Source: Scenedesmus sp. ARA3 (taxonomy: Eukaryota > Chlorophyta > Chlorophyceae > Sphaeropleales > Scenedesmaceae). From it: a DNA stretch of 64,000 bases. The stretch spans positions 9,313-73,312 of the forward strand of contig RWJK01001210.1 of assembly GCA_004335835.1 (NCBI GenBank), written 5' to 3'. The position numbers were made by a program, and so were the translations under genes. Positions 2 through 62,036 of the stretch are shown here, piece by piece. Under the pieces are notes generated by a model. The model was not told where the DNA came from and did not search any database. It saw nothing but the letters and a program-made list of their open reading frames with translations. Position 1 is the stretch's first letter. Each line of letters starts with the position of its first letter.

Positions 2-1010
2 TGGAAGGACTGCAGCAGCGACCCTGCTGCCAGCTGGAGCTTCACAGTGCCCTGCTGCAACGGTGTGGCCAAGCTGTCTGTGCCTGTGCCAGCGAGCGTG
101 GTTGCTGGCTGGCTGGCAAACAATGGCAGCGCTAACTACGGCCTTCTCATGAGGTAGGGTTTGCAGCATGTGTGTTACTGGCCGCCATGATGTAGGATGC
201 ACGCTGTGTATAGTATAGATGCTGCATCTGCTCAAAGCATTGTCAGCAGCGCACCAGCCCCACGCTTTCAGGGTTTAGAAACCCTAAACCCAAACCCTAA
301 ACCCTAAACTGCGGCCTGCTGATGAGGTGGGGCTTGATGGAGGCTTGCAGAGGCCCCTTCTGCATGCTCATCACATCTCGGCAATGCATGTATGCGGGTT
401 GGAGGCTGGCGAAGCAGCATCTGTTGCCCAACAAAGTTGCTTCAGCTTGCTGCATACAGCCAGAGCAGCAGCATGCATGACAGTGCAGCAGCGTACCAGG
501 CCCCACCATCCATGGTGCAGCTGCAGCATACTGCTTTCATGCAACAAATGTACTGCAGCACTCTCTGTGCACAGCTCTGCTCTGACGCTGCTGCTGTCTG
601 CTTGCGGCTGCTTACTGCCACAGGGGTGCCAGCACACCCTGTTTCAGCGGCCGATTATCCTGAGCTTTTCGCATCTTGAGATTGATCAAATGAAAAGGAC
701 ACACTCAAAACCAAACACCTATATGGATAATTGCTCGTGCTGCCGCAGGGGCGCCAGCACACCCGTCACGATCCGCCTCAGCCAGCACAGCGACACCAAC
801 AGCCGCCCAGCCTTGGACATCACCTACACCGACACACAATCTTCCGCAATGGGTTTGAGCCAGACCACCACCACCACCAAGAGCAAGACACAGCCCAGCC
901 CTGACCGCAAGCCCCACCACCCTGCTGCCTCACCTAAGCCCAAGCGTAGTCCCCGTGTCTCACCACGCCCGCTGCGCTCCCCTCATGCCTGGCGCAGCCC
1001 CAAGCCCTGA
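2..1010 (+). CDS. 3' end of a gene with a CBM96/DNRLRE-like carbohydrate-binding module (5' part outside window)
   Basis: Two exons fit in phase. Exon 2-153 ends ATG AG|gtaggg, and exon 749-1010 begins after cag and ends with a TGA stop. The joined protein (about 138 visible residues) has the pattern VPVPASVVAGWLANNGSANY-GLLMR followed by VTIRLSQHSDTNSRPALDITY. This resembles the last strands of DNRLRE/CBM96-type modules, where a 'V..W......N.GLLLR' segment precedes 'F.SR......RP.L.VTY'. A basic, Pro/Ser/Lys/Arg-rich tail of about 55 residues follows. Such modules occur in secreted carbohydrate-active or cell-wall proteins, so an extracellular role is inferred. The 595-base intron holds degenerate copies of both exon edges and a telomere-like run. 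The family call rests on motif memory and is moderate; the splice model is firmer. Confidence 0.5.
271..310. repeat. Interstitial telomere-like repeat (CCCTAAA)n
   Basis: About four units of CCCTAAA/CCCAAA, preceded by an inverted half unit (GGGTTTA). This is the Arabidopsis-type telomere motif. The run sits inside an intron, directly before a degenerate copy of the upstream exon's 3' end. Confidence 0.75.
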
Positions 1011-4000
1011 TCAAGGCCTTTGATGGAGGGTTTTGGGTGGAAGTTTGACTGGTGTTTGGTATAGTGTGTGTTGCGTGGGGTTTGATGCTACTGCTGGCAG
1101 TGTGCCAGGAGCTGCTCCGGTTGGCGGGCTTGGACTGTGAAAAGCAGCAGCACCAGCACCAGCACCAGCAGCAGCAGCAGCAGCAGCGCTGTGAGCTGAA
1201 GCTGCTGCTGGAACTTATTTTGGTGCAAGACGGCAGCTGTTCAGCTGTTGGGGGGAAATTTTTGGATATTCCTGAGCCTCTTTGGTGTATATTCTCACCG
1301 TGTGCATGAGGCTGGCTTCTGTGGACATCATTGGCCCTGCACCCTGTTGCACTGGTCTCGCGAAGCTGGGCTTTCCATCCTCCAGCAGATGCACACCCGT
1401 TGGGGGACATTCATTATGATTCATGAGCCTGTTTTTATGATCTCACCGTGTGCATGAGGCTGACTGCTGTTGAAAGCATTGGCCGTGCATTTCCAGCAGA
1501 TGGACACCCGTTGGGCCTGCTGGCCTCATTCCATCAGTCGTGACTAATTTGGTCGGGTTGAGTTGTCATGATCTGCACAGGGTTGAGTCACAGGCTGGTC
1601 ATGCTGTGCCGTCAATTGTGGCATGACCTACAGTCCAAGGTTGTGGGCAGCACTCATGGTTGCTGTGCCGCTCTGTGACACCCATGGTTTGTTTTGGTGT
1701 GGAAATGTGTTGGCCTTGCAAACTGCTCGCATGCCGACACCACAACAGTCCCAGGCGCTGTCGCATGCACAGGCAGTGGCCTTCAGGCTCTGTTGAATTG
1801 CACTCATGCGAATGTTCTCTTGGCAGCATCATATGAATATTGAATAGCCCCTTTCCGCAGCTTATACTCCGCTAAGCAGTGCTGCGCTGCGCAGCCGCCT
1901 GCTGCTGGCAATGCCACGATGCTTCAACACTTCCTAGTTGTGTTGCTTCACACCCATCGACTGAGCTGCCTGCTGCTCAGAGTTCGAATGCATTTGACTC
2001 AGTGCGCTGTCTGCCCACCACCATTTTGATGATGTCTGCTGTGATCCCGGGTCGTTTTTTCTGTTGTTTTCCTTGACACCTCTATCGATTGTTTGTTGCC
2101 TTGAGCTTGTCCTGGTTGGTGCATTTCATTGCGCTTTTTCCATAGAGTTCAGGAGGATGGCGCTTGTCCAGGTTGGTGCAGTTGCGCTTTGCTGTCAGCC
2201 ACTGGCATGTGATGTACGCATGCCATGTGATGGTATAGTCTGCTTTTCCCGGCAGTGCATTCCACATTGCACTGTCAGTAGCAGCTCCGCTTATCTGCAT
2301 GTGTTGGAGCTTGCCCCGCCCAGCGCTGTGCGCGCGCGGCCCCAACGTTGTGCCGCAGAGACCATTCGGTGCACGCAACACGCTTGCAGTGTACTCAAAT
2401 CTCTGTATGCAGTATGCAGCAGACAGTCAGCCAATCACAGCTTGAGCTACCACTTCCCTTTCCTTGTTGTTGGGTGTCCCGGCATGGTGCCAGCAGGTGC
2501 CAGAATCCTTGTTTTGACCGTCCTGTTTCCTTGAATTTGCATACATGCACGAGCAACATGAGCACGGGCACCGTACACATCACATATGCATGCGCATTGT
2601 CTTCACAAGCGCATGTCGCACAGGCAGGTTGTGATGTAACTGCACTGCTGCAGCTGCATTCACCCTGCATGAGCAGTACTAGTTGTTGCTGCCACTGCTG
2701 GCACGCCCCCCTGGTTTGATGCGCTGCTGTCACTTGTCTTCTCACTTGCACTTGCTGTCCTTCTAGCTTCTGCACCAGTATTCTTTGCAGCATACTTGCA
2801 TACTTGTGTCTGTTGTCTTTGATACCTGCATGGATGCTGCTTCAGCTCGGCTGGTGTACGATGGCAACGATCCTCATTCTCACTTTTCTTTCACACATTT
2901 TAGTGGCAGCATGGGCCAAGCAGCGGTTCCATTGAGGCCTCGGCGCCCCATTGCTGTGGGGTGTACAAATGCACCAGCTTATGTGTCAGACTCTGCATGT
3001 AGTGCGCTCACTTGCTGTCAATGCGGCGTGCCCATGCAGACTCCCTAACTCCACTGAGTGGGTATGTCTGTCTGCCAGTGCATTGCGAGAGGAAGCAACC
3101 TCGCTTGCAAGTGCCACTCCTGTGAAGATGGCCTGTTGGCCTGTTCTTGGCATGTAGTCACAGCATTTGCACATCACTCTTCTGCGTCGCAGCGCTGCTG
3201 GTTGGTACGGCAGCAATGACCGATGGCTGTATCATTACTGCTCTGCCGAGGCACGCCATGTGAGTCACATGAGTCAAGTATCCAGTATGGATAGGCTTGT
3301 GACACCATATCATATGGCACGTGCAGTGCGCAGCACTCCCTTGGCATCTCACCAACGTGGCCGAGTTGCTGCATTTGCATTTGTTGTTCACTGCAGGGTA
3401 AATCGCAGCATGGTTTATAGTTGCTGCTGCCCAGATTGCTGGTTGTTTTGCTGTGCCTGCATGAGCGGAGCTACTGTTTATTAAAGTAGCTACTGCTGAT
3501 CACTGCAACTTGTGTTGCGTGTCAGTGGTCTCGCAAGCGTCATGCGATGTCCTGCTGGGCACCAGGATAATCACCAGGGTAATCACTCGCCTCAACCCTC
3601 TCGCCCAAACCCCCCAAACGCGACCAGTCCTTTTTTGAAAGGAAATCACTGATCGAGTCACGATCACTGATCACATGCCAGTGGCGTGTGCATGGCATCC
3701 TTTCATGGGTGATCTGACATCTGCGGCGCCATCCTCCAGTGGATTGTAACTGGCTCTTATTGCAGACCCCAAATCTGCTGTAGGCCAGGCCCTGTGCTTG
3801 ATAATCTTAACAATGTGCTGTGTACTGGAGCTAGTGGCCAGGTAGGTTGCTGCTGCCTGCACAGGCAAATCATCAGGGTGACAAATCAAGGAAAAGTAAA
3901 GCCAGCCAGTACAGTGTCTGTGATTGCTCTTATACCTGTTTCACCGCTTCAACACGTGAGGTTCTTGAACCACCAAAGGCGGGAGCTCTGGTGACACCTA

Positions 4001-4471
4001 TCAAATTATCTATCTATCTAACAACACGAAGCCCCCTGGGCTGTGCTGCCTGGCAAAGCCATGAGACATTTCGTATGACATTTTGCTCTTATACTAGGTA
4101 TCAAGGTCTGCTCCGATTCAAATCAATCGAAGGCAGTGAGGGCTCGTTCGATTGCTGTGTCTCGCCAGCGAAACCCTTATCACTTGTATACAACCATTAG
4201 AATGTTGAGGTAAGGAGTTTGGCTCGTTATGTCACGCAGTGTCACCCCTGGACCCAAGCCACACCAGCACAGCACAGTGCTAGTGCGTCTGCCCATGCCT
4301 GCAAGCACCTATGCAGCTGCGTTGCTGGACACAAATGATGCATATTATTATATGTCAATGCTTGATGACGCCTGCCTTGACACGCTGCGATTCCACTGCC
4401 CCTGTGCTGCTGCTGCTGCTGCACCTGCACACAGGCTTCAGCCCTGATTTGCAGCAATCTCTGCTGCAGCC
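1011..4471. other. Intergenic region without a recognisable gene
   Basis: About 3.5 kb with only short, uninformative open frames on both strands. It holds a diverged tandem duplication (1271-1516) and scattered CTG/CAG triplets. The last few hundred bases would contain the promoter of the polyGln/polyAla gene; no clear TATA element was identified. Confidence 0.5.
1271..1516. repeat. Diverged tandem duplication, two copies of about 100-137 bp
   Basis: Copy 1 (1271-1407) and copy 2 (1421-1516) share the blocks CTCACCGTGTGCATGAGGCT and CCAGCAGATG.ACACCCGTTG in the same order, separated by diverged sequence. They lie in intergenic DNA with no coding signal. Confidence 0.6.
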
Positions 4472-5074
4472 ATGGATCAGCTTGCAGCCCCTTTCCTCGA
4501 AGCTGCTCGGCCGACACTTGTTGACCTAGCTGCAGCTGTCATAGCAGCTGCAGCTGCTGCTCAACAGCAGCCAGACGGACCAGCAGCAGCAGGCGATGTG
4601 CCAGCACACACTGCAGCTGCTGCGCTGCAGGGCCTCGCAGCAGCTGGAGCAGCAGCAGAAGCACTTGCAGGACTGCCAGCTGCTGCTGTGTTCAAAAACA
4701 ATGCAGCAGCAGCTGCAGCAGAAGCAGCAGCAGCAGCGCCAGATGACTGCAATGGCTTGCAGGACAGGGACCCCCAGCTGCCTCTGCAGCTGGCTTCCCC
4801 CCCTGCAGCTGCACTTGCACCACCACCAGCAGCAGCAGCACCACCACCAGCACCGCCAGCACAGCAGCACATGGCAGCCGTAGACCAAGACACAGCAGCA
4901 GCAGCAGCAGCAGCAGCAGCACGGCAGCATGTGACCGTTGTAACCCAAGACACAGCGCAGGTACAAGCTGCAGTTGCACCACCGCCACCGCCGCCGCCAC
5001 CGCCACCAGCACAGCAGCACCCAGCAGCTTTGGTCCAAGGTGTAGCACAGGACATGACAGCCGTAGGGCAAGAC

Positions 5075-5170
<96 letters not shown>

Positions 5171-5828: not shown

Positions 5829-5869
<41 letters not shown>

Positions 5870-6136: not shown

Positions 6137-6181
<45 letters not shown>

Positions 6182-12900: not shown

Positions 12901-13620
12901 ACTCCCAGGGTGTCGTCGCTGTCCTGGAGCCCGGATGGCCGGCTGCTGGCTGGCAGCAGCAGCGACTGCAGCCGCGTGATGGTGTGGGATGTGGCGCTAG
13001 GCGTGGGTGCTTCATTGCGGCTGGGCTTGCAGCCCATCACATGCCTGCAGTGGAGCCCAGATGGTGGCTACCTGTTTGCAGGTGGGTGAGAGAGGCAGCA
13101 AATGGAGATGGCTGGTCTGTGTTGCGTGTAGTGCTGCAGCATGCGATGTGGCCGATTCGTGGCAAGCCCCTGTAGTACAGTGCAGTGATGTTGGCCGGCA
13201 AATCAGCGTGTGTATATAGACCACAGGCGTGTGCTGGTTTGGGATGTGGTGCAAGCCTGCGGCTGGGCTTGCAGCCCATCACATGCCTGCAGTGGAGCCC
13301 AGATGGCGGCTACCTGTTTGCAGGTGGGCTCAGGGTTGGGGTTCTGGAGGTGAACCCTGGGCTCATGATGGACCAGATGCACCAGATCTAGCATGACGAA
13401 GTAGCTTGACAATGTGCATATAGTGTGATGCAGCACATGCAATGTGATGCGGCGGTCGCCACCTGGCTTGGTGGCAGGCAGCAGGCATGCCAGTGTGATC
13501 GAGCTGCTGCTGCTGCTGCCGCTGCTGCCGCCATGTTGATTGCAGCTGCGCGCTGCGGGCGCTTCTTCCTGTACGAGACAGCCACGTGGTCGCTGCGCTC
13601 CTGGGACACACCAGCAGGTG

Positions 13621-19870: not shown

Positions 19871-21461
19871 CATTACTGCTACCGCAGCTGCAGCAATTCT
19901 CCGGCCACGAGCTCGTTTTTCACACAAAGCATGGAGACATCGCCATGGCCCTCCTGCCAGACCTGGCCCCAAACTCAGTCGCCGAGCTGCGCCGCGCAGC
20001 ACTCATGCTGGCGCCTTACAATGGCTACTGCCAGAACTGCCGCATCTACAGGCCAGAAAAGAACTTCCTGGTGCAGGGTGTGATTGAGGCGCCCGGAGTG
20101 TATCCAGCAGTGCCGCGGCACCCCAGCCCGCCGCAGAAGATGGTCATGGAAAAAGGACTGGTGTGCTGGGCGGGCGGAAGCGGCGGGCCACACTGGTGTG
20201 TGTTATTTTGGTGTCACTTGTGTTATTTTGTGTGTGTAATTTGTCATGATCATGATGTTGGGTGCTGTCGGACGCAGAAAATGGTCATGGAGAAGGGGCT
20301 GGTGTGCTGGGCGGGCGGCAGCGGCGGGCCACACTGGTGCGTGCTATTTTGGTGTTATTTTTTGTTATTTTTGTGTGTTATTTGTCATGATCATGATGTT
20401 GGGTGCTGTCGGACGTAGAAGATGGTCATGGAGAAGGGGCTGGTGTGCTGGGCAGGCGGCACCGGCGGCCCACACTGGTGCGTGTTACTTTGGTGTTATT
20501 TTTTGTTATCGTTGTGTTATTTTAGTCATGATCATGATGTTGGGCGCTGTCGGACGCAGAAGATTGTCATAGGGATGGGCCTGGGTTGTTGGGCGGGCAG
20601 CACCGGCGGCCTGCACTGTTGGGTGTTGTGTTGTGTTCGGCCATTGAGTGTTGTTGATGTGTCAGGGCACAAGACTTCGAATGTGCCCTGCTGCTGCTGT
20701 TGCTGCTCCTCCTGCCCTGCACGTTTGTCAACATGATCGACCAGTCCGGCTTCAAGCACGACACGGTATTGTTGAACATCTGCTGCTACCGCTGCTGCTG
20801 CTGCTCCTCCTACCCTGCTGGTTTGTCAACATGGTGGACCAGAGCGGCTTCAAGGACGACCACCGTGTTGTTCAACATCTGCCGCTACCGCTGCTGCCGC
20901 TGCTGCTGCCGCCGTCGCCGCCACTGCTGCGCCGCAGGTTTGTCAACATGATCGACCAGTCTGGCTTCAAGGACGACCACCTGTGCTTCGCCAAGGGCAG
21001 CAACGCCTCCATGGCCGTGTTTGACAAGATATTGGAGCTGCCCATGAAGAACAAAACAAAGCCCAGCGACATGAACGGTGCGGCATGTGTGATGGTGATG
21101 CATACTCACATGCTTATTTTGGATGCACCGATAGCCTGCTTGCATACAACTGGCTACATCACCTCTGTCAACAACCATACCAATTTTAAGCTCAGTGTGT
21201 AGAACACCTCAGTGTGTGCTGCTTCTTGTTGTAGCACAGCCAGCCACAAACATCTTAACAGCGGGGCTAGATCTTGCCTGCAAACATTGTGGACCCGGCA
21301 ATAAATGTTGCGGGTGGTTCTGCTGGGGTGGCCGCTCCTGCACGCAAACCCTATCATGGCCATAGACCGGCGTTGCTGCCCTGCCCTGCTTGCTGCTGCA
21401 TGCTGCAGGCCTTCTTGAGCCCATCTTCTACAACATGACGCTGCGCAAGCCGCAGCGGTAG
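17555..21461 (+). CDS. Type II membrane protein: coiled coil, Cys-rich PAN-like segment and divergent cyclophilin-like domain
   Basis: Six exons (17555-18234, 18459-18539, 19137-19356, 19888-20195, 20938-21077, 21409-21461) give 493 residues, with every phase matching. A short basic N-terminus precedes one membrane segment (about residues 15-36). A Lys/Glu/Gln-rich coiled coil (about 85-190) and a Ser linker follow. Next is a Cys-rich stretch (about 212-300: AAECCASCHAQ, CNTWAFCGDRAKC, CWLKR) resembling a PAN/apple-like module. The C-terminal domain (about 330-490) has KHGDIAMALLPDLAPNSVAE, CRIYRPEKNFLVQG, GLVCWAGGSGGPHWFV, DDHLCFAK and FDKILELP. These match the order of the cyclophilin fold, but FHR and other catalytic motifs are altered, so isomerase activity is doubtful. 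Topology suggests an ER/Golgi luminal domain. The start at 17555 (CACCATGG) is preferred to the in-frame ATG at 17510. The introns are full of exon-edge copies. Confidence 0.72.
18415..18458 (+). repeat. (CTG)n tract forming the 3' splice site of exon 2 of the cyclophilin-like gene
   Basis: CTG/CCG triplets ending CTGCAG directly before the exon that starts G-TCG-GAC. Same arrangement as at several other acceptors in the window. Confidence 0.75.
18861..19202 (+). repeat. Three tandem copies of the exon-3 start of the cyclophilin-like gene, separated by (CTG)n
   Basis: Copies at 18861-18930, 19005-19074 and 19137-19202 share the blocks TGCTCGAGC..GGCGGCAC and GGCAGYGCCTGCAACAC. Copies 1 and 2 then run into CTG tracts of about 19 and 17 units (18939-18996, 19077-19128), each ending in a CACCGCAG acceptor. 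Only copy 3 continues into the Cys-rich coding exon. Confidence 0.9.
19751..19925 (+). repeat. Two copies of the exon-4 start of the cyclophilin-like gene flanking a (CTG)n tract
   Basis: CTGCAGCAGTTTGCCGGCCA at 19751 and its near-identical partner at 19888 both follow a CGCAG acceptor and continue CGAGCTCGTTTT.CACAC. A (CTG)n run of about 16 units (19822-19868) lies between. The second copy continues into the cyclophilin-like domain. Confidence 0.88.
20137..20620 (+). repeat. 141-bp tandem array, four copies of the exon-4 end plus following intron
   Basis: Units start at 20137, 20278, 20419 and 20560, exactly 141 bp apart. Each begins after CGCAG or CGTAG with AAGATGGTCATGG-like sequence. 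Units 1-3 contain a 59-nt exon-like block ending GGCC(C)ACACTG|GTG(C/T)GTG; unit 4 is more diverged (TGCACTG|TTGGGT). They then share TTATTTTGTG, TCATGATCATGATGTTGGG and GCTGTCGGACG. Unit 1 is the coding exon end; units 2 and 3 look like complete cassette exons bounded by AG and GT. Confidence 0.93.
20721..20975 (+). repeat. Three copies of the exon-5 start of the cyclophilin-like gene
   Basis: The block TTTGTCAACATG(A/G)T(C/G)GACCAG followed by GGCTTCAAG.ACGAC occurs near 20723, 20821 and 20938. The first two copies then decay into CTG/CCG-rich sequence. The third follows a strong GCCGCAG acceptor and continues as coding exon. Confidence 0.9.
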
Positions 21462-22810: not shown

Positions 22811-25645
22811 TTATAACGACCATGTGCCCAGCTTGCCCGAATACATCGGCAGCCCGTACGTGGGAAGCCCAGTGAGCTTCACCGCCTTTCTCCTTGCCAT
22901 GCGGGCACACAGCGCAATGCCAACAAGCGCGAAGAACACGCCTGCCCCGCCGGCACACGCCAGCATTGTCAGCAGCGCCTGACTGATCATGTTTGTACTG
23001 CCCATGTGGCAGCACTGCATGACCTCTTCTGCTGCATCGAGCTGCTGGTCGAGCTCCGTGCAGAGTGCTGCGACGGCTGGCAGCAGCCGGTTGCCTACGA
23101 TGTCATCTGCAGCCTTGAAGTCGTGCTGCGAACAGACAAAGCAGCAGCAGCAGCAGCAGCGCCGTAAACAAAACAGTCATGATAGGCGTCACCACACATT
23201 CGTCTATCACTGCTGCTGGCTGGGAAATCAAAATTCTTGGACGGACCTGACCCCACTGTGAACCAGCAACAGCGCAGCAGCTCACCTTGAACTGCTGCTG
23301 TGAACTTCAGATATTGCAGGTCGCGAATTCCCACAATAAGATTGCACAACCCGCGCCAGCTCACCGCGAACATGTCCATGGCCAGCTGCTGCATGCGAGC
23401 TGCTCTGGATCGCACAATCAGTAAGTTAAATGACACTGTGAAGCTCACTGTGAAGTTCAAAATATACCGATCAGCCAGCTCACCGTGAACATTTCCATGG
23501 CCAGCTCCTCCACCATGGTGCTGATGTTGGACAGCGATGACTCCAGCTGGTACACCACCTCCTTATTGAGCGTGCTGTTGTAGCCGTGGCGCGTGCTGCA
23601 GCACATGATGGCACAGGTACAGCACAGTAACAGCAGGTCAAAACCACAGCGCACAGCATCCGATGCATGGTGGCGTACTCTGCTGTTGAAGCCGTGGCGC
23701 GCGCTGCAGCAAGATGGCACAGACACAACAGCAGCAGGGCGCAGCCGTAGCGGGAGGAGGCGAGCGCAGCATGGGCATTTCAGCAAGGACGAGTTACAGC
23801 AAGGCTGCAATCCAGAATTGCAGAATCCATATTCATATATATCTCACCTGGCCACGGTGTCCAGCCAGTGCCGCCCGGAGTCCCCCAGCCCCGCTCCCGC
23901 CCAGGGCCCCTTGAAGTGGTGAGCAACAAACGCGTCCAGTGCATCCAGCTGCTGCTGCAGCTGCCGCAGCGCAGCACCCACGTGCGCCAGCAGCACGTTG
24001 CGCCGCGCCGCATTCTGCAGGACAGGGAAGAGGCAGCAGGATCGCACAGGCTGTGACGCTTGCGATGCCAGGTGTGGCTGGCATGACAGGGCAGCAGTCA
24101 TGGCTCTGTGCGCTCAGGTGAAATTCTAGTGCCTGCAGGGCGGGTTGTTTTGACGTAGGAAATTAGAGCTCGCGCCAGAGGAGTGCAGCTGAGACATGCC
24201 AGCAGCTTGCGACCTGTGCTGCAAACACGCTGCACCGTGCTGGATTGACCACACTTGCAACAAGCAGCACACATCTTATATGGTTAATCTGCTGACCTGA
24301 AAGCCGGCGGNNNNNNNNNNNNNNNNGGGGGGGGGGGCACGTTCTCCACCGACAGCAGCAGCATCACTTCTTGCTACATCTACAACGTATAACTAAATGC
24401 CGCTGACCTGCATGATCTCGCTGACCCCCTTGTGGTTGCTGTAGGTCTCCAGAGCAGATAATTTTGCTGTTCTGAACTTGACCACACTGGCATCTGGCAG
24501 CGCATACAAAACCAAACTGCTTGATCCCGCTGACCGCTGACCTCTGGCTAGATCAACCAGATATGTAAACAAACTTCGCTGACCTGCATGATCTCGCTGA
24601 CGCCTTCATAGTTGCTGTAGGGCCCGAAAGGCGTCGCGCCTGCCGCCCAGCGCCAGTCCACCTCCAGCTTGTCCAGCGAGGACTCAAAGTGCTGGTAGGG
24701 CGGCGTCACGCCTGCGGAAATGACAACAAATGTAACACATGTGTAACAACTAAGTAATAATCTTTGAAAAGTAGCTGTGAACGTGAACATAACACTAAGA
24801 ACACAACACAGCCGCCAATGCTTGGATTGAAACATTCATGCAGCACACACTAGTTATGTGTGCATGCAGTGTCCAGGGGTGTGGTTTAGGGCAGAGAACG
24901 CCCATCACACCAGCTGCCTGATCAATGCTGCCAGCAGCCGCAGCAGGCGCCGAGGTAGCGTTGAAGTCAGAGAACGTGCCAGAAGCGGCCGCAGAAACAG
25001 CCGCCGAACCGCATGTGTCGACGCCTGCGCCAGTCCCGCGATGACGTGGCATGCTGCTACTCGAAGTTGTTACACTTGCAAGCCGCACCTGTCAGTGCTT
25101 GTGCCAGTCCAGCGATGGCGTGGCATGCTGCTACTCGAAGTTGTTACACTTGCAAGCCGCACCTGTCAGTGCTTGCGCCAGTCCAGCGATGACGTGGCAT
25201 GCTGCTACTCGAAGTTGTTACACTTGTAAGCCGCACCTGTCAGTGCTTGCGCCAGTCCAGCGATGACGTGGCGTGTGCTCTTGGCGCCATCCAGCACCAC
25301 ACGCCGCCCATTGGCCATGTGCCCCGTGAAAAACTCGTCGGGGCCGCCCCACCTGGACATACATACGAGCAAACGTGCGCAGGCACAATATATAATAAGA
25401 GGTATGTGCGCGCCGCATCCGACAGAGAGCAGTACTATTACGGCTGATATGCGCACTCAATGCAGCAGAATGCATCAAAGAAGCGATGCCGACGATGTAA
25501 CTGCATGCGATTGTGAGTGTGCAACAGGCAAGTAGCACTGCTTTTAGACCTGGACGCACAATCTTACAGCGCACTCACTTGCTGCCATGGCGCAGCTGCA
25601 GCACCACCACGTTGTCATGGTCAGCAGCCATCAGCTCCCTGCAGG

Positions 25646-25685
<40 letters not shown>

Positions 25686-28600
25686 TGGTGTCCAAACACC
25701 CCACCACGCAAGGTCTTGGTCGGTGCAGCTCCGCTAACCATGAGCACCACCACCAGCCGTCCACCTGTGCAGCTGAGACGCAACATATATCACACGCCAG
25801 CTGCTTCACAAACTGGAACAACTTCACATCATGCTGTGTGTGCGGACTCACCTGTTGGACAGCACCACGTCCTCTGGGTGGTTCTGCAGCGCCAGCACAA
25901 ACACGGGCACCACGCGCGTGCCCTCGTGCCGCAGCTGCGCGATGTGGTGCTCCGCCTCCTTGCCCATGGTATGGGCAACAGCTGCAGCAGCGGCAGCAGC
26001 AGCAGCAACGGCGGTGGCATCAGCAGCAGCAGCGGCAAACATGCCAAGTGACTGGCATCATGCCTGTGTGTAGCATGTCATTTGGGTGCTTTTGCCGCCT
26101 TTAAACGCCGCCCTAAAAACCCTACCAAGCGCAACTGCAGCAACATAGCTGCAACCGAGTGGCTGCCAGACAACCATTGCTACACAGGAAAACAGAACTC
26201 AACGGTCTTTTGAAGCAAATATAAGCAATGACGCTTAGATCAGAAACAGCGCGCCACTCACTGACGAGGCCGTGTGTGAGCATATCCGCGCTCATCTCAA
26301 TCTCCTGCATCAGCACGTCCGGATCAATATAGGTGTGGCTGTGGCTGTGGATGCCCATGTCAGTGCCCTTGTAGTCCCGCGCTGCAGCCACATCCACAAC
26401 ACTCTCGCTGTGGCTGCGAGTGGCCTTATGTAGCGCAGCCGCCAGCTGCTTGTGCTTGTGGAGCTCATGGAAGGTTGTTATAACGACTCCTTCCTGGCCC
26501 TCGCTGAGGAGGTGAGCCAGCGCTGCCTCGACGTGTGTTACATTGATGCCGTAATAATTCTCCTGGGTTTGCGCGATGGACTCGTCTGCTGTCACGGGGT
26601 GGTCGGACAGCACCACTAGTGGCACCTGCAACGGCGGCGGCGGCAGCAGTAGCAGCAGCAGCAAAAGTTAAGTTTATGCCCCAATATTCTCCTGGATTTG
26701 CGTGACTGACTCATCTGCTGTCACGGGATGGTCGGACAGCACCACCAACGGCACCTGCAGCAGCAGCAGCAGTGAAAGCAGCAGGAGTTGGATGCAGGAG
26801 CTGGAAAGGTTGACGCTCAGTGGGCTACAGTGCAGCACTGCTTGCGGCATACTAACAGCAACAAGAGCAACGAAAGCATTGCCGGAGCATATTACCACCA
26901 GCACTGGCTTGGCCTGCTCAATGTGTTGGGAGGCCATGTTGAGCAGATACATGCAGCTGCTGATTGGCAAACAGAGATAGCACAACAGATGCTCACTAGG
27001 CTGTGTTGCCGTGCTCAATGTGCTGACTTGCCGTGTCAGGCACAAGCACGGCCCTGGCGCCAGCCGCCAGCAAAAGTAACATTGCAACATAGCATAACAC
27101 AACACACGTTCAGCGCATTTTGTCACCCAGCACTGTCTTGGCCTGCTCGATGTGCTGGGACGCCATGTCTGGCACAAACACGGCATTTTGTCAGCTGCAG
27201 CAAAAGTAACATAACATAACATAACATAGCATAACACAACACACTTTAAGCGCATTTTGCCTCACCAGCACTGTCTTGGCCTGCTCGATGTGCTGGCTCG
27301 CCATGTCAGGCACAAACGCAGCCTTGGTCCCCGCCGCCAGCAGCGCAGCCAGCCTCCCGGCCAGCAGCGTCACCAGGCCGTGCTCTGCTGCCTGCCGCGC
27401 AAACTCGCGCACCGTCTGCTGGTTGGGCACTGCCTTCAGCTGGTCAAGCAGCTGCTGGTATGTGTCCTGCAAATGAAATGTGCACACAGACACGGACAGC
27501 AGCAGCAGTAGGAGCAGCAGCAGTGCAGAGGGAGAGCTGAACATTGTGCTGGTCGGGCACTGCCTTGAGCCGGTCCAGCAGCTGCTTGTGAGTGTCCTGC
27601 ATCTTACAGGTTAACAAAAATGCAGCAGCAGCCGCAGCAGGAACGCAGCGTTTCTGTTGAGTTGCGCTGCACAAGCGCAAGGCAGGCTGACAGCTGGTGC
27701 GCGACACGTAAGAAAGCCTCTTCTGCTGCTGTGCCAGGTGCGCCTGCCGCTTGATGTAGGGTATGCAAGCAGCCAACCCAGCCAGCATCATCAAGGCTGC
27801 AGCCTGGGAAGACACCATACCGCTGCCGGTTGCTTATACACAGGCAATGGCCGGTTGACAGCAAATACACTGGTAGTCAAGTTGCTTGTGGTGGCGCACC
27901 TTTATCAATGGCAGCGCCTGCAGCGTGACAGCGCCCCCCTGGCCGCAGTGTTCAACACCCACATGTTGCTGTGCGCTAGTTCAGTCAATGCCCGGCTGTT
28001 AGCAAGCACACAGCCAGCGCACCTTGATTGATGGCAGCGCCTGCGGCGTGACAGCGCCCCCTTGGCTGACTAAGGGTCCATACGTGGAGGGCCCTGCAGA
28101 CAGGTCCACCACCATATAGTTCTTGCTGCTGTGCCAGATGGCAGTCTCTCCGACACCGTTGTACTGGTACCTGTGCAGCAGCACAGCTGCAGGCGTCAGT
28201 GCTACAAATGATATCACACGTGGTTAACATTGCACAGGCATTTAGTAGCATGTATTGGCAAAGGGATACAGTCTCCAGGTCTTGCCTGACAGCGGTATGC
28301 ATGGTGTCCTGCAACTGATAACATGGAGTTTTCAGAGTTTTTCAGCATGTGAAGCCTGGCGGGCTAGTTTTGTAGCATGTGCGCCTGTGATGGGTGGGCG
28401 GTTGCTGTGCAACCGCACGGGCATGCACGTAGCATTTGCACAAGCCGCCACGGCAGCAGCGGCCGTATTTCAGAACTGCAGGGCAAGGCAGGTATGCTTG
28501 CAGAAAGGCCTGCAGGAAGCCCTGCAGGATTTGCAGGCTCATGTGCAGGCAGCCTGGAAGCAACACCTCACCTGTAGATGTATCCCGCCTCCTCATCAGA

Positions 28601-31475: not shown

Positions 31476-31880
31476 GTTTGATGGTCGTCACAGTTTGGAG
31501 CTTGATCACACCGCTCCCATCTCTGCTGTCCCCGGTGCAACGGCTCTCAGCACCCCATGTGTTCCGACAACCTTCAACTTGAACGACGTCACGATCGGCA
31601 TACTGCATCTCCGTGATCACCACCTGACCTGGGACCTGTTCCATGGCAGTTACACCGGGGCTCTTGCCTGTGCCCCGTTGTGGCAGGCAACCCGCACCTG
31701 TGCCTACATTGGCATCGTCAAGTCGATCGTGCATTGTGTCTTGTGCACATCGTTCTCCACTGCCCCCAGTGGTCGTTCGTCTTGGTTGTTCTTCCCTGCT
31801 TCTTTCTTTTCTCTTGCTCGACCCCTGGCGTTGCTTTGCACTTACTGTATACCAGCAGTCTTTCAATCAGCTTAATTGCT
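31476..31880. promoter_or_regulatory. Short divergent (bidirectional) promoter region
   Basis: Only about 405 bases separate the SPOT1-like start (minus) from the F-box/WD start (plus), so both promoters and 5' UTRs must share this interval. It is free of CAG/CTG runs, unlike most flanking DNA. No clear TATA box was identified; the role is inferred from geometry. Confidence 0.5.
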
Positions 31881-34307
31881 ATGTCTGTGAACATTGGCCT
31901 TGAGGTGCTGTCCCTGGGCGATGCTGCTGAAGCAGCAGCAGAAGTGCTGCACAACGATGCGCTGCTCGCTCGCATCTTCTCGCACGCCGGAGACTTGCAA
32001 ACCCTGCTACAGTCTGCCTCGGTATGCAAGCTGTGGCGCTCGGTGCTGGAGTCTGATGACATTTGGCGCTCAGTGTACCTCACTCTGCTGCCTGAGCCAT
32101 TGGAGTATGAACGTGTTGCCAGGTAACACCCCTCTCCCAACACTTGCAGCAAGTTTGATTATTGTGTGATGGAATGTGCCTGTAGATGGGCCCTGCAGCG
32201 CGCCTGATCAACCAGCAGCGATTGAAAAACTATTTGCATGGATATGCCCCCTGCAGTGCCGCAGCTGCAGCAGGCCGCGGTGACTGACAGCAAGGTCTGC
32301 CTGCTGATGCTGCATGCATGCCAGTTTCTTGTTCGTAGTCTGTCGTAACAGCAACAACGCAGCTTGATTTGCGTGGTCTTGCAGCTGACTGCTGTTGGCA
32401 GCATGCAGCACGTACCACCACCCACAACAAGCCCCAGGGTGTCCTGCAAGCACCAGCACCATTGCACACAACATCAACGGCAAACAGGCTTGCCTGCTGC
32501 TCACATCATACCCCAACTACACACCCCAACTCACTGCCTTTTCTTTGCGTACCTCACCAATCCACATCCGTTTGCAGCTACCGGCAGCAGTTCCAGCGCC
32601 TGCACGGCCTGCAGCACGTGCCAGCCCCCCAGCAGGCCGCCCTGAAGGGCAGCGCCCTCTGCTTCAACAGCAGCAGCGGCAACCTCGTGAGCTTCAACAG
32701 CAGGCAGCGCATGGTGTCTGTGCAGGCGCCTGACGGCAGCATACGGAGCGAGATAACAGACGTGGCGGGCGCTGCCACGGCACACAAGCCGCTGCTGGCG
32801 AGTACGGGCAGTGAGCTGGTGGTGCTGGCGGCATTTGATGGACCCCTGCAGGTGAGCAGCAGCAGCAGCTGAGCGAAGCTTTCTGCAACTTTTGTCTGTG
32901 TTCATGTTTTTTGGTGGTGCTGATTGGCGCCTGCAGGTGAGCAGCAGCAGCAGCAGCAGGCAGGCAGGCAGCGTCTGCACGGTTAAGTGCGTGCAAGAGT
33001 CCTTCACTCGCCGCACGCCTCATCCCTGTCGCGCTTGCAACGCCTGCGCGCAGCTGCTGGGCGCCATGACCTGCCAGCCTTCAGGAATTCTAGGGACCGG
33101 TGTCACGCTGCTGACCTGTGCTGACCGTGTTGCTTTTGCGTCCTCCATCTTGCGCCTGCACTCCCTGCAGCTGTGGGACGCTGCCACCTGCCAGTCAGCT
33201 GGCATTTTAGGCTCTCACGCCTCATTCAATACCAGCCTTGATGCTAGCGGCAGCCTGTGGCCGCATGTTGCGCCTGCAACTCCTGCAGTCGTGGTTAGCC
33301 GCCACCTGCCAGCCTGCCCAACCTTCTGCTGGCCCTGCACTGACCTTCCGCTGACTCGCTGACCTGCTGTCCTTCTGCACTTCTATTTGGTGGTGTGGTG
33401 ACTGCGCACAGCTGTGGGACGCCGCCACCTGCCAGCCAGCCGGCATCCTAGGATCTCATGCCTCCTTCATCACCAGCCTTGATGCCAGCGGCAGCCTGGT
33501 GGCCTCCACCTGCAGTGCTGAGCTGCGGCTGTGGCAGCTGAAAGGGCGACAGTGCCTGTTCCAGGTGCCGATTGGGCTGCCCATGCCATCACCAGGTGGG
33601 CTTGGGGCGAAGGGATTAAATCACAGATTGCAGTGGTAGCCTGTCTGTGGTTACATGGTGGCATGCTATGCATAGGTTTTTTGTTTGGGAGTATGAGCTG
33701 TGGCGGGGTGGGGCGGCAGATGCATTGCATAGACGCCTGTGGCAGCTGAAGGGGCGGCAGTGCCTGTTCCAGGTGCCGATTGGGCTGCCGATGCCGTCCC
33801 CAGGTGGGCTAGAGACAAAGGCTTTCAATTACAGGATGCAGTGATAGCCTGTCTGTGCTTTGTGTAATGTTTCTCTTAGTGATGGTGGCATTGTATGCAT
33901 AGGTTTTATGTTTGGTGTCATGAGCTGGGGCGGCGTGGGGCGGCAGATCTTTAATGGATGCCTGTGGCAGCTGCAGGGCCGGCAGTGCCGGTCCAGGTGC
34001 CCATTGGGCTGCCCATGCCGTCATCAGGTGGGGTTGGGATGTATCAGACACTGCTGGTTTTTGATATAGGCAGGGGTTGTGGATGTAGTGTGGGTGGTCA
34101 TAGTACAGCATGCACTGATTGTATGTGGTGCAAATGTGGCACTGCAAGCGTGTGTGTGGTGCGGGTTTGGCACTGAAGGCGCGAGGGTGTGTGTCGTCAT
34201 GTACGCCAGTTACTACCATGCCTGTGGTGTTGCCTTGCACAGCATCATCCTGGGCCTGTTGTGTAAGGCGTGAGATGCAGCTGGGCCGAAGATATATTGT
34301 AACTCTG

Positions 34308-34361
<54 letters not shown>

Positions 34362-36776: not shown

Positions 36777-39179
36777 TCAGCTGCTGCTGCTGCCTGCTGG
36801 TGGCCCCGCCTCCTCAATGCCCCACTCGGCAGGCCACCACTCCGGCCGCTGCGGCACCACCTGCTGCACTGCCCCGCCTTCTAGCTGCACCTGCAGCTGC
36901 GGACCCTTGTCACCCTTGCCAGCTGCTGCTGCTGCTGCCAGTGCAGGGGCCAGCTTTATGTAAGCCATGCCCATGTCACCGCAGTGGTTGGTGAGGGTGC
37001 CGATCTGACTACTCCTGCTGCTGCTCGGCGTGCTGCCGGCTGCTGCTGCTGCTGCTGCTGCTGCGGATGATACGATGGGCAGCGGGCACGGCAGGCCTGT
37101 TGCAGCACAGGAAGACAGATCGGCAGCGTAAAGGGTGTCAAGAATGACAGTTAGCAGGAGACATGCAGCACGTGCAACTGCCGGTTGCAGCCGGAGGCGC
37201 CTTGTGCTTTGCGCCAACAAGTAGCACTTGCGCTCCAGCACCTCCAGAGCAGGGCAAATCAAACTGCTGTCGCTGACGCTCAGGCAACTTACATCTGCAA
37301 AACCACAGGGCAGCAACCCGCTGCCACCTGCGTTTTCATGCATGCACGCATGCTGCCAGCACTGCAGCATTCATGTCATGTGCAGCAGCTACCGGCTAGC
37401 TTCTCTATCAACATCACTGCTGCAGCAGCAGCAGTCACGCGCTGATGCATCAAGCCCCGGCAGCGCCACAGGCATCAGCTGCTTGCGAATAATGCCCCTG
37501 AAGTGTGTGTGGCTGTTGGCGAATATGTTAAGCCGCACACACCCTGCTGTGGCTAGATCAGTGACATGATGGCCACGTATGCAGCATCACTCACGTGTGG
37601 AGGCATCCAGTCCCGGCAGCGCCACAGGCATGAGCCGCTTGCGTATGATGCCCCTGAAGTGTGTGTAGCTGTTGCGCTCCTGGCCGATGTAGCAGCCCTT
37701 GCTGTAGCTGATGCCTGCCAGCGCATCCAGATTACATTCCAGTGGGGCCACCTCGCCTGTAAGCAACAGAAGTGCAGCACAAAGGGGCACGACGTTTGTG
37801 AGAGCTTGTATATGTGTCTAGCTGTAGCTGATGCCTGCCAGCTCATAGTGGTTGCACTCCAGCGGCGCCACCTCGCCCAAGAGGTCAAGAAGGCAGCAGA
37901 CAGCACGCGTGTGAGAGCATGCGGTTGTAGCGTGCGCTGCAACTGATGCCCGCCAGGGGTAGGTTGTAGCGTGCGCTGCAGCTGATGCCCGCCAGGGGTA
38001 GGTTGTAGCGTGCGCTGCANNNNNNNNNNNNNNNNNNNNNNNNNNNNNNNNNNNNNNNNNNNNNNNNNNNNNNNNNNNNNNNNNNNNNNNNNNNNNNNCT
38101 GATGCCCGCCAGGGGTAGGTTGTAGCGTGCGCTGCAGCTGATGCCCGCCAGGGGTAGGTTGTAGCGTGCGCTGCAGCTGATGCCCGCCAGGGCGCCAAGG
38201 TTGCACTCCAGCGCCACCTCGCCCGAAAATCAACAACAGCACACAGCTGACGTGCAGGAGCGTATGTATAGGCATTGTTCACAGGTCGCTAGCCCGGCCG
38301 CATGCAAGGCTGCTACAGCCAAATGTTGCAAGGTTGCTGTAGCCAAAGGGCAGAGGCCAGCACGCAAGGTTGCCGCAGCCAAAGGGCAGAGGCCAACAGG
38401 AAGCTGGCAAAAGTGCTAAACACAATCAGCTACAGAGCAAGCACAGGCCCTCAATGACTTGCTCGCCCGCCATAGCTTAGAAACAAAGACAAAAAAACCA
38501 GGCCATTCACCTGTAGGTGTGTCTGTGTCCCCTTCTGCTACGAAACAGGGAAGTTACATGTGGGTCCTGGCACTTAACACGCTTAACACATGTTAGAAGG
38601 TATTCACCTGTGGGTATGTCGGTGTCCCCTTCTGCTATGCCCAGCATGTAGCGCCAGCGCTGGAAGTGATCCTCGCTGACAATGGACATGCCGGCAGCCT
38701 GCTGCTTCCTGCTGCTGCTGCCCGCTGCTGCGGGTGGCGGCGGCAGCTGCTGCGCATCAAAGATGCCTCTCAGGCCAAGCTGCGGCAAGCGCGGGTCTTG
38801 CCGCCACTGGCCTGCGGCAAGAAAACGAAAAAAAGCACAGCAGCTGGTGAATAGGATACTTGCGGATAAGGAGACTGCGCGTGTAGCGTAGGTTGCAGTC
38901 TGAGAGATACAGGCAGGCAAGACAGCAAGCAAGCAAGCAAGCAAGCAAGCCAGCCAGCCAGCCAGCCAGCACGCAAGCAAAGCATACACAAACGCAAGCA
39001 GCTGACGCTCACCTGCTCCGCCTGCTTGCAGCTGCCCATCAAATGCTGCCCACACGCTGTACTGCCTACTGGCATCAGTCAGCTGCAGCTTGCGCCGCAG
39101 CTTGTACTTGCCCAGCCACTGCAGAGCACTCTGTAGGCCAGCAGCATCAACGTCAAGCAGCAGCTCCGGGCTGTCACCT

Positions 39180-53660: not shown

Positions 53661-54775
53661 ATGCAGGCCTCACTGCGGAACAGCTTGCTGCAGCAATATG
53701 CAGTCAGGCTGTTTGAGGGGCAGCTGCACAACGTAGGTGAGTACACTGCCAGCACTTCAGGTGCAGCTGAAAGCTCGATCAAGCACTTGTTTGTGAGCGA
53801 GCAGTGAGGCCAGCAGCTGGTGTGCATGAATGCGCTGGGAGCTGCTGGTTTGGTTTAGCCATATAGCTGGAATATCTGCAATCTCCTGCAGTGCGGTGTG
53901 CTGCAGCAGCCCCACGTTGACACCTCAAACCCAATGCACGCATGTGAACGTCAATACATGTATACGCACGTGATTGCTGCTGCTGCTGCTGCTGCTGCAG
54001 AGACGGTGACAGTGGAGGCCTCAACAGGCCGCTTGCTGCTGCCAGACAAGTGGGGAGATGTGCATGAGGCGCTGCAACTGGCTGACGGGTCTTACCAGCT
54101 CAACCCTAAACCGCTGGCCCAGCTAGGCCCTGGCAGGGTTTTGGGCAGCAAGCTGGATGCAGATGGGAACCTGGTCATGTGCGATGTGCTCAAGGTGCGC
54201 AGCAGCAGCAGCAGCAGCAGTAGGTGCAAGTGCAAAAGCTGGCACAGCAGCAGCAGCAGCTGCTGCAGCAGCAGCATCAGCATCTGCATTGTCAGAAGCA
54301 GCAACCTCTTGCATGTGGTCTGCCCTGCAGTGCTAGCCATCGTTGCAGTAGAACTCGCAGTTGAGCACATTACTTGCCATGCTGCCGTGTCATCACCAAC
54401 ACCATTGCAGGGCCTGCTGCGCCTCAACACCAGCAGCGGAGCCGTGCAGCAGCTGGCCTCACGCATCATCGTGCATCATCCGCATCACCGGCATCACGAC
54501 GCTGCTGTCTGATCCACCATGCAGGGCCTGCTGCGCCTCAACACCAGCAGCGGAGCCGTGCAGCAGCTGGCCTCACGCATCAGCACCAGCTCAGCAGAGG
54601 GCCCAGGAGAGCCCATCTTCTACGCAAACGGCTTGGATGTCGCCCCCAATGGATCTATCTACTTCAGCTCGTCCACGGATATTTTGCCTGCCAGGGCGCG
54701 CACCGGGAGCTATGACACCGGGTTTGCGTGGGCGCTGAACAGCTTCCGGGGCCTGCCTGCGTGAGTGTTGCTTGC

Positions 54776-54812
<37 letters not shown>

Positions 54813-55036
54813 CCTTGTGCAGCTGATGTTTTAGGCTTGCTATGACACTGGGTTTGCGTGGGCGCTGAACAGCTTCCGGGGCCTGCCTGCGTAAGTTGCT
54901 TGCGGCAGCACCAGCAGCAGCAGCAGCAGCAGCAACAGTAGCACCTTGTGCAGCTGATGGTTTAGGCTTGTTATGACACAGGGTTTGCGTGGGCGCTGAA
55001 CAGCTTCCGGGGCCTGCCTGCGTGAGCTGTTTTGCT

Positions 55037-55095
<59 letters not shown>

Positions 55096-55640: not shown

Positions 55641-55695
<55 letters not shown>

Positions 55696-55902: not shown

Positions 55903-55933
<31 letters not shown>

Positions 55934-59659: not shown

Positions 59660-61753
59660 AGCCAACACCATCGGCCGAAGAGCAGGATGCCAGTGACAGT
59701 GAAGAACGAGAGCCTGCTGCGCTGTGAGTAGGCTCGGGTCATGGCAGGCCCAGCCATGCCAAAAAGACAGGTGTCACCAGCAGCAGCATGTAGCACAGAG
59801 TGTTGCATTGCTGCTGTCGAGATTGCAGCTCCAGTGTGTGACATACCGTACTGTGCAAACGTGAATGTATAGGCGGCGCGTGATATACAGCAGCGGCCGC
59901 ATGCCATGCCTGGCCACGGCACTAGTCTGGTGCCTAAGGCAGCGACACATTCACAGCTGGGAGCATGTGGGCGATGGTGAAATTGCTACGTCCAATACGC
60001 GCAGATGATGTTCTTGCAGCTTTGCATGCACTTGTGCTGCAGTTGACATAGCTATCACGTAATGCTGCCGCTGCTGCTGCTGCTTCTGCTGCTGCTGCCG
60101 CTGCTGCTGCTGCTGCCAGGCTGGGCCAGAGGAGAAAGGTACCAGCAGCAGCGGCGCCTCGCAGTGTTGCTGCACGTGACAGTGGCACGCCGCAGGGCGC
60201 AGATGAAACAGCAGCGGAGGAGGGAGAGGATGAAGTGGGCGAGGCAGAGCAGGGGCCAGAAGCAGATGTAAACCTTGCAGATGATGACGAGGATGAGGAA
60301 GAAGAAGATGAAGATGAGGATGAAGAAGAGGATGAAGATGAAGATGAGGATGAATACGAGGAGGAAGATGAAGACGCGCTGTTCAGGGAACTGTATGGAA
60401 TTGACGATGTTGCAGACGATGAAGAGCAGGAGGAGGGGGAGGAGCAGGACCCATGGTTTGGAGATGGTGAGAAGGCAGGCTGTGATTGGTTTGGCTGCAT
60501 CGCCACATGTGCCTGTGCTGCCCTTCTGTGAGCCCAAGGGTCCGTGCGAACCAAAGGCTTCTGCCAGCAGCTCCAACAGTCATGCTACCAGCCACAGCAG
60601 CAGCTGGCTCTGCAGCATGCGGCTGCTGCTACACAACTGGACAGGCGCCCTTGCAGCAAGCTAGCATGAAATGACCTCAGACCCGCACAGCAAGCAGCAA
60701 TACATGCAGTGACAGCGGCGTTTTATCCAGGCAAAGCAGGATGCTGCTAGGTGCTGACTGTGCCATATTGTACATATGGTCAGCTTCCTGGCAAGCTGCT
60801 GACCCTGTTGCACCTCTAGCCGCCGCGTGCTGTCATAACCACCTGCTGTACCACCCGCTGTATATCTGCCAAACCATCTGCTTCCTGCACATGCAGGCAC
60901 GCCACCCGACTATGATGTATTCCTCGACTTTGCACCCCAGGGCCCCGAAGTGGCCCGCGGCACCGCACCGCAGCCGCAGCCAAGCGACCGCGCGCTCCCC
61001 AACGGCGTCTTCGCCCGCGAGCAGCCGGACGGCCGGCACTGCTTGTTCGGCGAGCCGCTGCGGCATGCGCCGAAGCTACTGCGCCGCATCTTCCGCATGC
61101 GGCAGCAGCCGGGGCAGCTGCTGTGGGCGAGTGAGCAGCCACTGGAAGCGGAGGCGTGGCAGTACCTGCAGGACGTGTTTGCGGCGCCGAGGATCCGGCC
61201 GCTGCTGACGCGGGGCCAGCGGGTGCTGAAGCCGCTGCCAGGTCCGTAGGGACTGCAGTGCACTTTGAAGGATGTGTTTGTGTTTGAACAGTTTGCAGCA
61301 CTCAGGATCTGGTTGCTGCTTATGCATGGCCAGCAGGTGCTGAAGCCGCTGCCAGGTCAGTATGTATCAAGTGCACTTTGCAGGATGTGTTTGTAGCAGC
61401 CAGGATCCGGCCGCTGCTGACGCGTGGCCAGCGGGTGCTGAAGCCGCTGCCAGGTGAGAAGGGACTCGAGCAAGCCACATGATTTGCAGGAAGCTTCAGG
61501 CTCAGTGCATGTGCTTAGCGGTGATCATCACAGTGCAATGCAGCTGTGCAATGCAGCTGGGTGGATAAGCTGTTTCTTTGTGCCGCAGCCGCTGCCAGGT
61601 CAATGGCCAGAAGACAATTTCGGCGCCTAGCAGTGCCTGCTGAACCCTGCCGGTTACTGCAGGCTGCACACATGTGTACAATGCGATGCACCATGAATGG
61701 CGCAACTCAGTGGACCAAGTGTTGTTGGCAGTGAGACTGTTGCGCTCCTGCTT

Positions 61754-61784
<31 letters not shown>

Positions 61785-62036
61785 CTCTGTGTGTCTGCAG
61801 ACCGCGCACTGCCCAGCTGCTTCCGGCTGTACGACGATGCTGGCCGCATGCTGCAGGGCCCTCGCGTGTCAGGCGCCACTGCCAAGCCCTGGAATGTGGG
61901 CCGGCAGTTCTTCTCCTCGTTTGGCGAGGGCCCAAACAGCTTCATTTGGGCAGACGGGGTCAGGGCAATGGAGCCGGAGGCCCAGGCTGACTTCAATGCG
62001 TACATGGGTGACAGTCTTGGGTGGATGGGCATGTGA
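59660..62036 (+). CDS. Unrecognised acidic protein with a conserved-looking C-terminal half (5' end unresolved)
   Basis: Four exons join in phase (59660-59723, 60120-60466, 60897-61241, 61801-62036), giving about 330 visible residues. The first visible exon needs an upstream partner that was not found. The N-terminal half is very acidic (about residues 65-130, long Asp/Glu runs ending DALFRELYGIDDVADDEEQE). The C-terminal half is compositionally normal: PPDYDVFLDFAPQGPEVARG, HAPKLLRRIFRMRQQPGQLL, AEAWQYLQDVFAAPRIRPLL, CFRLYDDAGRMLQGPRVS and SFIWADGVRAMEPEAQADFN, ending LGWMGM. I do not recognise the family. The acidic tract suggests a nuclear or chaperone-like role, but this is a guess. A small alternative last exon (61599-61630) would give a different C-terminus. 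Four tandem TGTAA signals follow at 62228. Confidence 0.55.
61176..61455 (+). repeat. Three copies of the exon-3 end of the acidic-protein gene
   Basis: The block from CAGGA(C/T)GTGTTTG to GGCCAGC(G/A)GGTGCTGAAG and CCGCTGCCAG|GT occurs near 61170-61241, 61268-61356 and 61379-61455. The copies end GTCCGT, GTCAGT and GTGAGA, so the best donor belongs to the third copy, although the reading frame uses the first. A short CCGCTGCCAGGT remnant is present again at 61589-61600. Confidence 0.88.
61747..61800 (+). repeat. (CTG)n tract upstream of the last acidic-protein exon
   Basis: About ten CTG units followed by GCGCTCTGTGTGTCTGCAG, the acceptor of the exon starting AC-CGC-GCA. Confidence 0.7.

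Follow-up and report, generated by a model that had tools for sequence, protein, structure and literature searches.

The window analysed here, a 64,000-nucleotide stretch of contig RWJK01001210.1 from the green alga Scenedesmus sp. ARA3, holds 12 genes, and across it the edges of exons are repeated, splice sites included, in the adjacent introns. Apart from the SPOT1-like and F-box genes, the gene names used below are those of the initial annotation or were assigned from the look of the translations, and are presumptive. Self-comparison of the window (E 1e-3) gave 58 direct pairs of matching segments with identities from 67 to 100%, of which 50 lie less than 3 kb apart, and in 49 of these 50 the offset is 74-469 bp. 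When simple repeats were masked as well, 36 direct and 2 inverted pairs were obtained, compared with none in one dinucleotide shuffle, and the printed alignments of 38 window pairs (E 1e-2) show exon ends with their GT donors, and exon starts with their AG acceptors, repeated in the adjoining intron. These alignments and counts confirm that the repeats are real, as the initial annotation had proposed. At least one pair lies wholly inside the gene interval in nine of the 12 genes (SPOT1-like 12 pairs, IBA57 6, cyclophilin-like 5, F-box/WD 5, ALADIN-like 2, GH5 2, strictosidine-synthase-like 2, Q/A-rich 1, acidic protein 1), whereas none was found within the intervals of the CBM-like, SNU13 and CSL-type glycosyltransferase genes; the description of the pattern as present in nearly every multi-exon gene therefore holds for most of the window but not for these three.

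A wider sample of 28 sequences (307.8 kb), two of which, the CCT1 and CCT5 loci, were picked because they show copies, yielded 208 direct versus 6 inverted local pairs, or 146 direct pairs once the two chosen loci were removed. Pair offsets in this sample peak at 80-160 bp, and pair density is uneven, ranging from 0 to 17 per 10 kb among the 25 sequences of at least 5 kb. The lack of pairs in SNU13, attributed at first to the constraint on that gene, is upheld, but constraint is not a sufficient reason for it, because the CCT1 and CCT5 loci, both highly conserved chaperonin genes, contain 41 and 21 pairs, respectively. The range of one to three copies per edge given earlier is also exceeded, as one CCT1 array has six units, the sixth being incomplete. 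A gene finder trained on the sequence itself learned a strong splice consensus (CAG^GTGNG and TGCAG^, with the caret marking the junction) and a median intron of ~220 bp; upstream of TGCAG, its acceptor profile has a periodicity of three bases. There are 287 perfect runs of CAG/CTG type, each five or more units long, in the 307.8 kb together with a further CCT1 sequence, L030. All sequence taken together contains 30 telomere-like words (TTTAGGG/CCCTAAA), compared with 8.3 after shuffling; 27 of the 30 are in predicted introns and 13 in the CCT1 sequence L028, although composition may explain them, since control words occur 3 and 44 times. A scan of the proteasome family gave few overlapping matches and was not used.

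The SPOT1-like gene served as the reference gene of the window, since its exons are defined by the spliced alignment of a protein, P0001, which spans 17 exons with 853 of 856 residues identical and is at or near 100% in most of them. This protein derives from short contigs (no longer than 2,877 bases; source labelled lgn), and the next-best match to the gene, from Scenedesmus sp. PABB004, reaches 67%. The degree of identity suggests that P0001 comes from the same species as the window, and its being spliced suggests an origin from RNA. Together with the close agreement of the CCT1 product with a protein of Tetradesmus obliquus (see below), these matches suggest that the alga is at or near T. 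obliquus (Scenedesmaceae). At the duplicated edges of this gene the unit nearest the exon body is the one used, and the intronic copies are missing from P0001. The features concerned are as follows.

22814..31445, minus strand: SPOT1-like gene (PF25483), 17 exons from the spliced protein P0001.
27894..27943, minus strand: intronic copy of the exon end 28017-28066, with an identical donor, AAG^GTGCGC (alignment).
27547..27649, minus strand: intronic copy of the acceptor edge 27417-27521 (alignment and P0001 exons).
27261..27342, minus strand: functional exon end and donor (the exon ends at 27266), first of a four-unit array (alignment and P0001).
26896..27187, minus strand: intronic copies of the exon end 27261-27342 (at ~27127-27187, 26992-27072 and 26896-26939), spaced ~100-140 bp apart and absent from P0001.
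26667..26784, minus strand: intronic copy of the acceptor edge 26537-26661 (alignment and P0001 exons).
25009..25206, minus strand: rest of an array (3.4 units of 74 bp) of an exon end and donor, with the functional unit at 25231-25279 and spacers alike.
24366..24445, minus strand: intronic copy of the exon end 24540-24621, donor CAG^GTCAGC retained (alignment).
23681..23738, minus strand: intronic copy of the acceptor edge 23573-23637 (alignment).
23355..23393, minus strand: intronic copy of the exon end 23474-23512, donor retained (alignment).

A run of N also lies within this gene, at 24311-24326.

The two sides of the copies differ markedly. In SPOT1 and CCT1, ungapped identity between copy and original is ~0.75-0.9 on the exon side and 0.80-0.84 over the five-base splice site, and drops to 0.3-0.45 further on, a level reached within 5-10 bp of the junction. 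The GT is retained in 18 of 20 donor copies and the AG in 14 of 18 acceptor copies, which resembles the level in exons, is about what 10% neutral divergence would leave and exceeds what the intron-side divergence would leave. The four copies (from SPOT1, CCT1 L028 and CCT5) that diverge from the exon by no more than 3% over 30 bp or more, and have the splice site inside the match, share just 3-6 identical intron bases with the original, as would be expected if an old copy had been refreshed up to the splice site. In the six-unit CCT1 array at L028 8021-9010, an exon block of ~84 bp is common to the units and the spacers align poorly, and a second CCT1 array behaves in the same way. In the CCT1 array of L030, the coding sequence GGGCAG^GTGGGG at position 485 has a high donor score (7.2) in five units out of six, and its position also scores as an acceptor in all six. 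The protein is unaltered by the duplications, both in SPOT1, by the comparison with P0001 given above, and in CCT1, where the part of the L028 product that was compared with the T. obliquus protein P0004 is identical to it at 414 of 415 residues.

The preference for exon junctions was assessed by shifting pairs randomly along their own sequences, with exons taken from the gene finder. The 146 unselected pairs fall on exon edges in 116 cases versus 81.4 expected, an excess that is somewhat inflated because the gene finder tends to call copies as exons, and are correspondingly scarce in introns only (19 versus 45.2), wholly within exons (3 versus 8.3) and between genes (8 versus 11.1). Pairs of at least 88% identity, 56 in number, show the same pattern (edges 45 versus 27.9; introns only 5 versus 20.8), and by inspection several of the pairs confined to introns are copies of other copies. 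The claim that the repeats respect exon junctions is accordingly supported, for young pairs as well, although part of the edge pattern is explained by geometry, with units of ~130 bp set against a median intron of ~220 bp. Intron length was examined in a homology-defined exon set (SPOT1, CCT1 and CCT5; 32 introns), in which 20 introns hold a copy and copies make up 5,038 of 19,340 intron bases. The more copies an intron holds, the longer it tends to be (Spearman 0.74; mean 740 versus 378 bp with and without a copy), and much of this length is that of the copies, since the correlation is weak once copy bases are subtracted (0.24, p 0.18). The intron growth envisaged in the initial annotation is thus supported in these three genes; its interpretation as a whole is supported in part, for growth and not for intron birth (see below).

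More surprising, and unnoticed in the initial annotation, is the finding that the copies in the closely studied genes are conserved like coding sequence. Differences between copy and exon in SPOT1 and CCT1 comprise 130 synonymous and 92 nonsynonymous changes (0.586 synonymous; cluster bootstrap 0.51-0.65), compared with 0.41 expected if the copy were neutral and the exon changed synonymously only. By gene, the ratio is 98:57 in CCT1 and 62:33 in CCT5, the latter counted after removal of eight aligned segments of doubtful fit, and inclusion of the C-terminal CCT1 locus brings the count to 219:133 over 64 copies, of which one carries a stop and 11 a frame-breaking gap. Changes private to a single copy are 60 synonymous to 69 nonsynonymous, where neutrality predicts 26% synonymous (p 4e-7, treating sites as independent), and those private to the functional exon are 16:2. 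Copies diverged from the exon by less than 10% have a synonymous fraction of 0.68-0.69 (69 changes) and the more diverged ones 0.54-0.55 (153 changes), as expected if copies begin synonymously diverged and then decay. A simple account in which duplicates merely decay fails to explain such protein-like copies.

The reading tentatively preferred is that old exon-edge arrays lengthen introns and that recombination with functional exons, perhaps those of diverged alleles, would refresh their exon blocks. Segments of ~75-190 bp that straddle an exon edge have been duplicated locally, as is seen in the sequence, and the exon-proximal edge alone enters the main protein, leaving it unaltered (as judged by SPOT1 against the apparently conspecific P0001, and CCT1 against the T. 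obliquus protein). The remaining units stay in the intron and lengthen it, as shown by the correlation in the three genes. In most SPOT1 and CCT1 copies the intron side has diverged almost beyond recognition and the exon block has kept its splice sites, its amino acids and, mostly, its frame. Recombination among units, limited to the homology that remains, namely the exon block, may then rewrite these blocks from functional exons. Such exon-bounded exchange would explain the younger look of many exon blocks relative to their flanks, and a synonymously diverged donor, or direct use of the copies, would explain why change is mostly synonymous. The donors may often be diverged alleles, in which case many of the copy differences would have arisen while the sequence was still coding; diverged donors are needed because conversion within one chromosome should not exceed ~0.41 synonymous, and on this reasoning alone such conversion was set aside as sole cause. 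The reading as a whole is further supported by the 208:6 ratio of direct to inverted pairs, by the use of one copy per edge in the SPOT1 protein and by the edge excess of young pairs.

Several observations weigh against this reading. Two of the three genes studied closely were picked for showing copies, SPOT1 by itself has a weak synonymous excess (32:35), and the unselected sample, in gene-finder frames, shows a smaller one (289:277). Differences within exon blocks are not clustered (mean rank 0.525, SE 0.042, 43 copies), so that no tracts of partial conversion, which would leave clusters, can be discerned. With gapped extension, faint resemblance on the intron side emerges in many copies and a strong one in a few, for example at 56 of 60 bases in the 74-bp array of the window, and spacers are alike in the window arrays at 25009-25279 and 54709-55075. 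Units U1, U4 and U5 of the L030 array are near-identical, and U1 and U4 have by eye an identical 53-bp spacer, which indicates that copying of both sides also occurs. The allele donors, moreover, are hypothetical, because a single CCT1 locus was found in the 87.3-Mb assembly, with every match of at least 71% identity on one contig among the 46 matches listed.

If, alternatively, random tandem duplications of ~130 bp were neutral, tolerated within introns or over one edge, and then decayed, the edge pattern would follow from geometry and from slower decay of the functional half. Geometry does favour edges at the median intron length, constraint acts on the functional exon, there are tandem arrays that are clearly periodic and have spacers alike, and SPOT1 alone departs only mildly in its synonymous fraction (0.48). 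However, neutral simulations of SPOT1 and CCT1 put through the detection procedure used for the real copies (eight runs at each of four settings, assuming an ancestral intron of 220 bp, an indel rate and a total time of 0.15 or 0.3 substitutions per site) gave synonymous fractions of 0.36-0.43, compared with the 0.48 observed in SPOT1 and 0.63 in CCT1, and an intron-side extension score of at least 20 in 0.57-0.77 of copies, compared with 0.30 and 0.04, respectively. An in-frame stop is found in 1 of 56 copies where 5.7 would be expected, given an assumption about the share of changes that fell on the copy, and young pairs, too, are rich at edges. The exon and intron halves are therefore not decaying as neutrality predicts, at least in three genes of which two were chosen for their copies, and this explanation is unlikely. 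Use of the copies in minor transcripts, as mini-exons or alternative exon ends subject to purifying selection on the protein, is a lesser but real possibility. In T. obliquus, isoform P0006 differs from P0004 only in the additional residues VLESGSVVP, which a 27-nucleotide mini-exon in CCT1 copy U4 (L028 8623-8649) would encode; the mini-exon block has five exact copies in L028, and U4 alone has the required preceding AG. The retention of splice sites points the same way, internal AG^GT motifs in some arrays (at the CCT1 C-terminus) would permit protein-neutral splicing between units, and the five copies with the strongest internal sites are 17:4 synonymous, compared with 202:129 for the rest (Fisher p 0.10). 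Most copies, on the other hand, contain part of an exon and could not simply stand in for the real edge, 11 of the 64 have the frame-breaking gaps noted above, P0001 contains none of them and P0006 may be a mere gene prediction. Copies without an internal AG^GT (49 of 64) are nearly as synonymous as those with one (161:104 versus 58:29, Fisher p 0.37), and neutral splicing through such sites, present in 15 of 64 copies, is not supported as a general cause and leaves the pattern unaccounted for.

The suspicion raised in the initial annotation that haplotypes had been joined by the assembler, or more generally that diverged haplotypes or strains are interleaved in one contig, is quite unlikely to be correct. 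Alike exon blocks between unlike introns do resemble what alleles would show in a species of great diversity, common short-read lengths are close to the 80-160 bp offset peak, N runs lie inside some arrays, and the relative NREL 46B-D3 is reported to be likely diploid (PMC7955037). Against this stand the fairly regular spacing of up to six units per edge, the spread of identities in the window, the confinement of the listed CCT1 matches to one contig and the P0006 isoform, which depends on copy U4 and whose record lies on a contig of 4.4 Mb, as opposed to the 42.9-kb contig here. The gaps inside arrays are suggestive of genuine near-identical repeats that the assembler could not join, and copy numbers there are unsure. 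The birth of introns by tandem duplication of AGGT-bearing exon sequence (the Rogers model) is very unlikely. Splice sites are indeed duplicated along with exon sequence, but in none of 577 predicted introns does the donor context match the intron's own acceptor context at 60% or more, and the mean match is 0.268 versus 0.259 when permuted. One apparent case, a CCT1 intron at L030 485/1032, was rejected because it lies across a 50-N gap, and with it the proposal of the initial annotation loses its lone candidate.

The repeats in other window genes are listed below.

12969..13328, plus strand: ALADIN-like exon end and donor, at 12969-13086 and 13224-13328, the functional copy not being fixed by a transcript.
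20132..20637, plus strand: cyclophilin-like array, ~3.5 units of 141 bp that by eye resemble a short exon with splice sites, the last unit without a donor.
33146..34038, plus strand: F-box/WD acceptor-edge copies before the predicted exon start at 33412 and donor-edge copies after 33595 (gene-finder exons).
37425..38247, minus strand: IBA57-like, copies of at least two exon edges, with an N run at 38020-38098 inside.
54400..55075, plus strand: strictosidine-synthase-like, a 99%-identical acceptor-edge copy (54400-54468 and 54515-54582) and a 131-bp donor-edge array in which the spacers are alike too.
61167..61466, plus strand: acidic-protein gene, exon end copied and donor retained (alignment).

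The exact exon of the F-box/WD gene stayed ambiguous in comparison with its ortholog P0124 (PF12937, 57%), for which reason the three-gene counts omit it. HT031_006759 and HT031_006760 of Scenedesmus sp. PABB004 are the best matches to the SPOT1-like and the F-box/WD gene (22814-35918), and the pair is probably syntenic, given that these numbers are consecutive. Copy number near 37.9-38.2 kb is unsure because the N run there is flanked by a 77-bp exact repeat. The 99%-identical strictosidine-synthase-like copies are separated by an unmatched 46-bp spacer (54469-54514), filler-like by eye and with repeated CGCATCA-like words. A further run of N occupies 12661-12710.

The arrays share features with several known systems without coinciding with any of them. 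Whole-exon copies with both splice sites are not the rule in SPOT1 and CCT1 (window 20132-20637 and L030 being possible exceptions). Tandem mutually exclusive exons are approached by the cyclophilin-like and CCT1 C-terminal arrays, which repeat much of an exon with its splice sites, but SPOT1 and CCT1 copies mostly comprise one edge and lack the remainder of the exon, and P0001 gives no sign of their use. Minisatellites in concerted evolution are likewise periodic, local and of several units, whereas mean conservation in SPOT1 and CCT1 steps sharply at the splice junction instead of being even through the unit. Introner elements are repetitive sequence tied to introns; here, in contrast, copies are local to their own exon, as seen in the 50 of 58 close window pairs, and dispersed introner-like copies were not found for the window and CCT1, the CCT1 copies being on their own contig only among the 46 matches listed. 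Intron gain by AGGT tandem duplication (Rogers, 1989; Hellsten, 2011; both as cited in PMC4974935) also involves local duplication of exon and splice signals with a protein that can stay unaltered, but in the present case existing introns grow, and donor and acceptor contexts are not mutual copies. Internal gene duplication (Gao and Lynch, 2009, as cited in PMC4974935) resembles the present case in that duplications within genes are frequent, and differs in that here mostly partial exons are kept in introns, often as arrays and, in the studied genes, with coding-like conservation. No description of exon-edge arrays in algae was found among the titles and abstract openings of the literature searched; alternative splicing in one Scenedesmus acutus gene is treated in PMC12899622 and the genome of a relative in PMC7955037, and the portions of these articles drawn on here mention neither duplication (the former) nor introns (the latter).

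It is possible, on a more cautious footing than the preferred reading of refreshed arrays, that exon-edge arrays form a class of intronic element throughout the genome, and that their copies, though excluded from the mRNA, would be held to coding sequence up to the exact junction by exon-bounded rewriting (perhaps templated by RNA or an allele) or by selection, so that introns would grow from, and be reseeded by, their own exons. The gene finder called many intronic copies as exons, and annotations in these algae may therefore hold spurious peptide repeats. If the proposal is true, these genes would offer a live system for the study of intron lengthening and of the choice made by the spliceosome among near-identical sites a hundred bases apart, and the many natural copies would allow decay, gene conversion and selection to be told apart.

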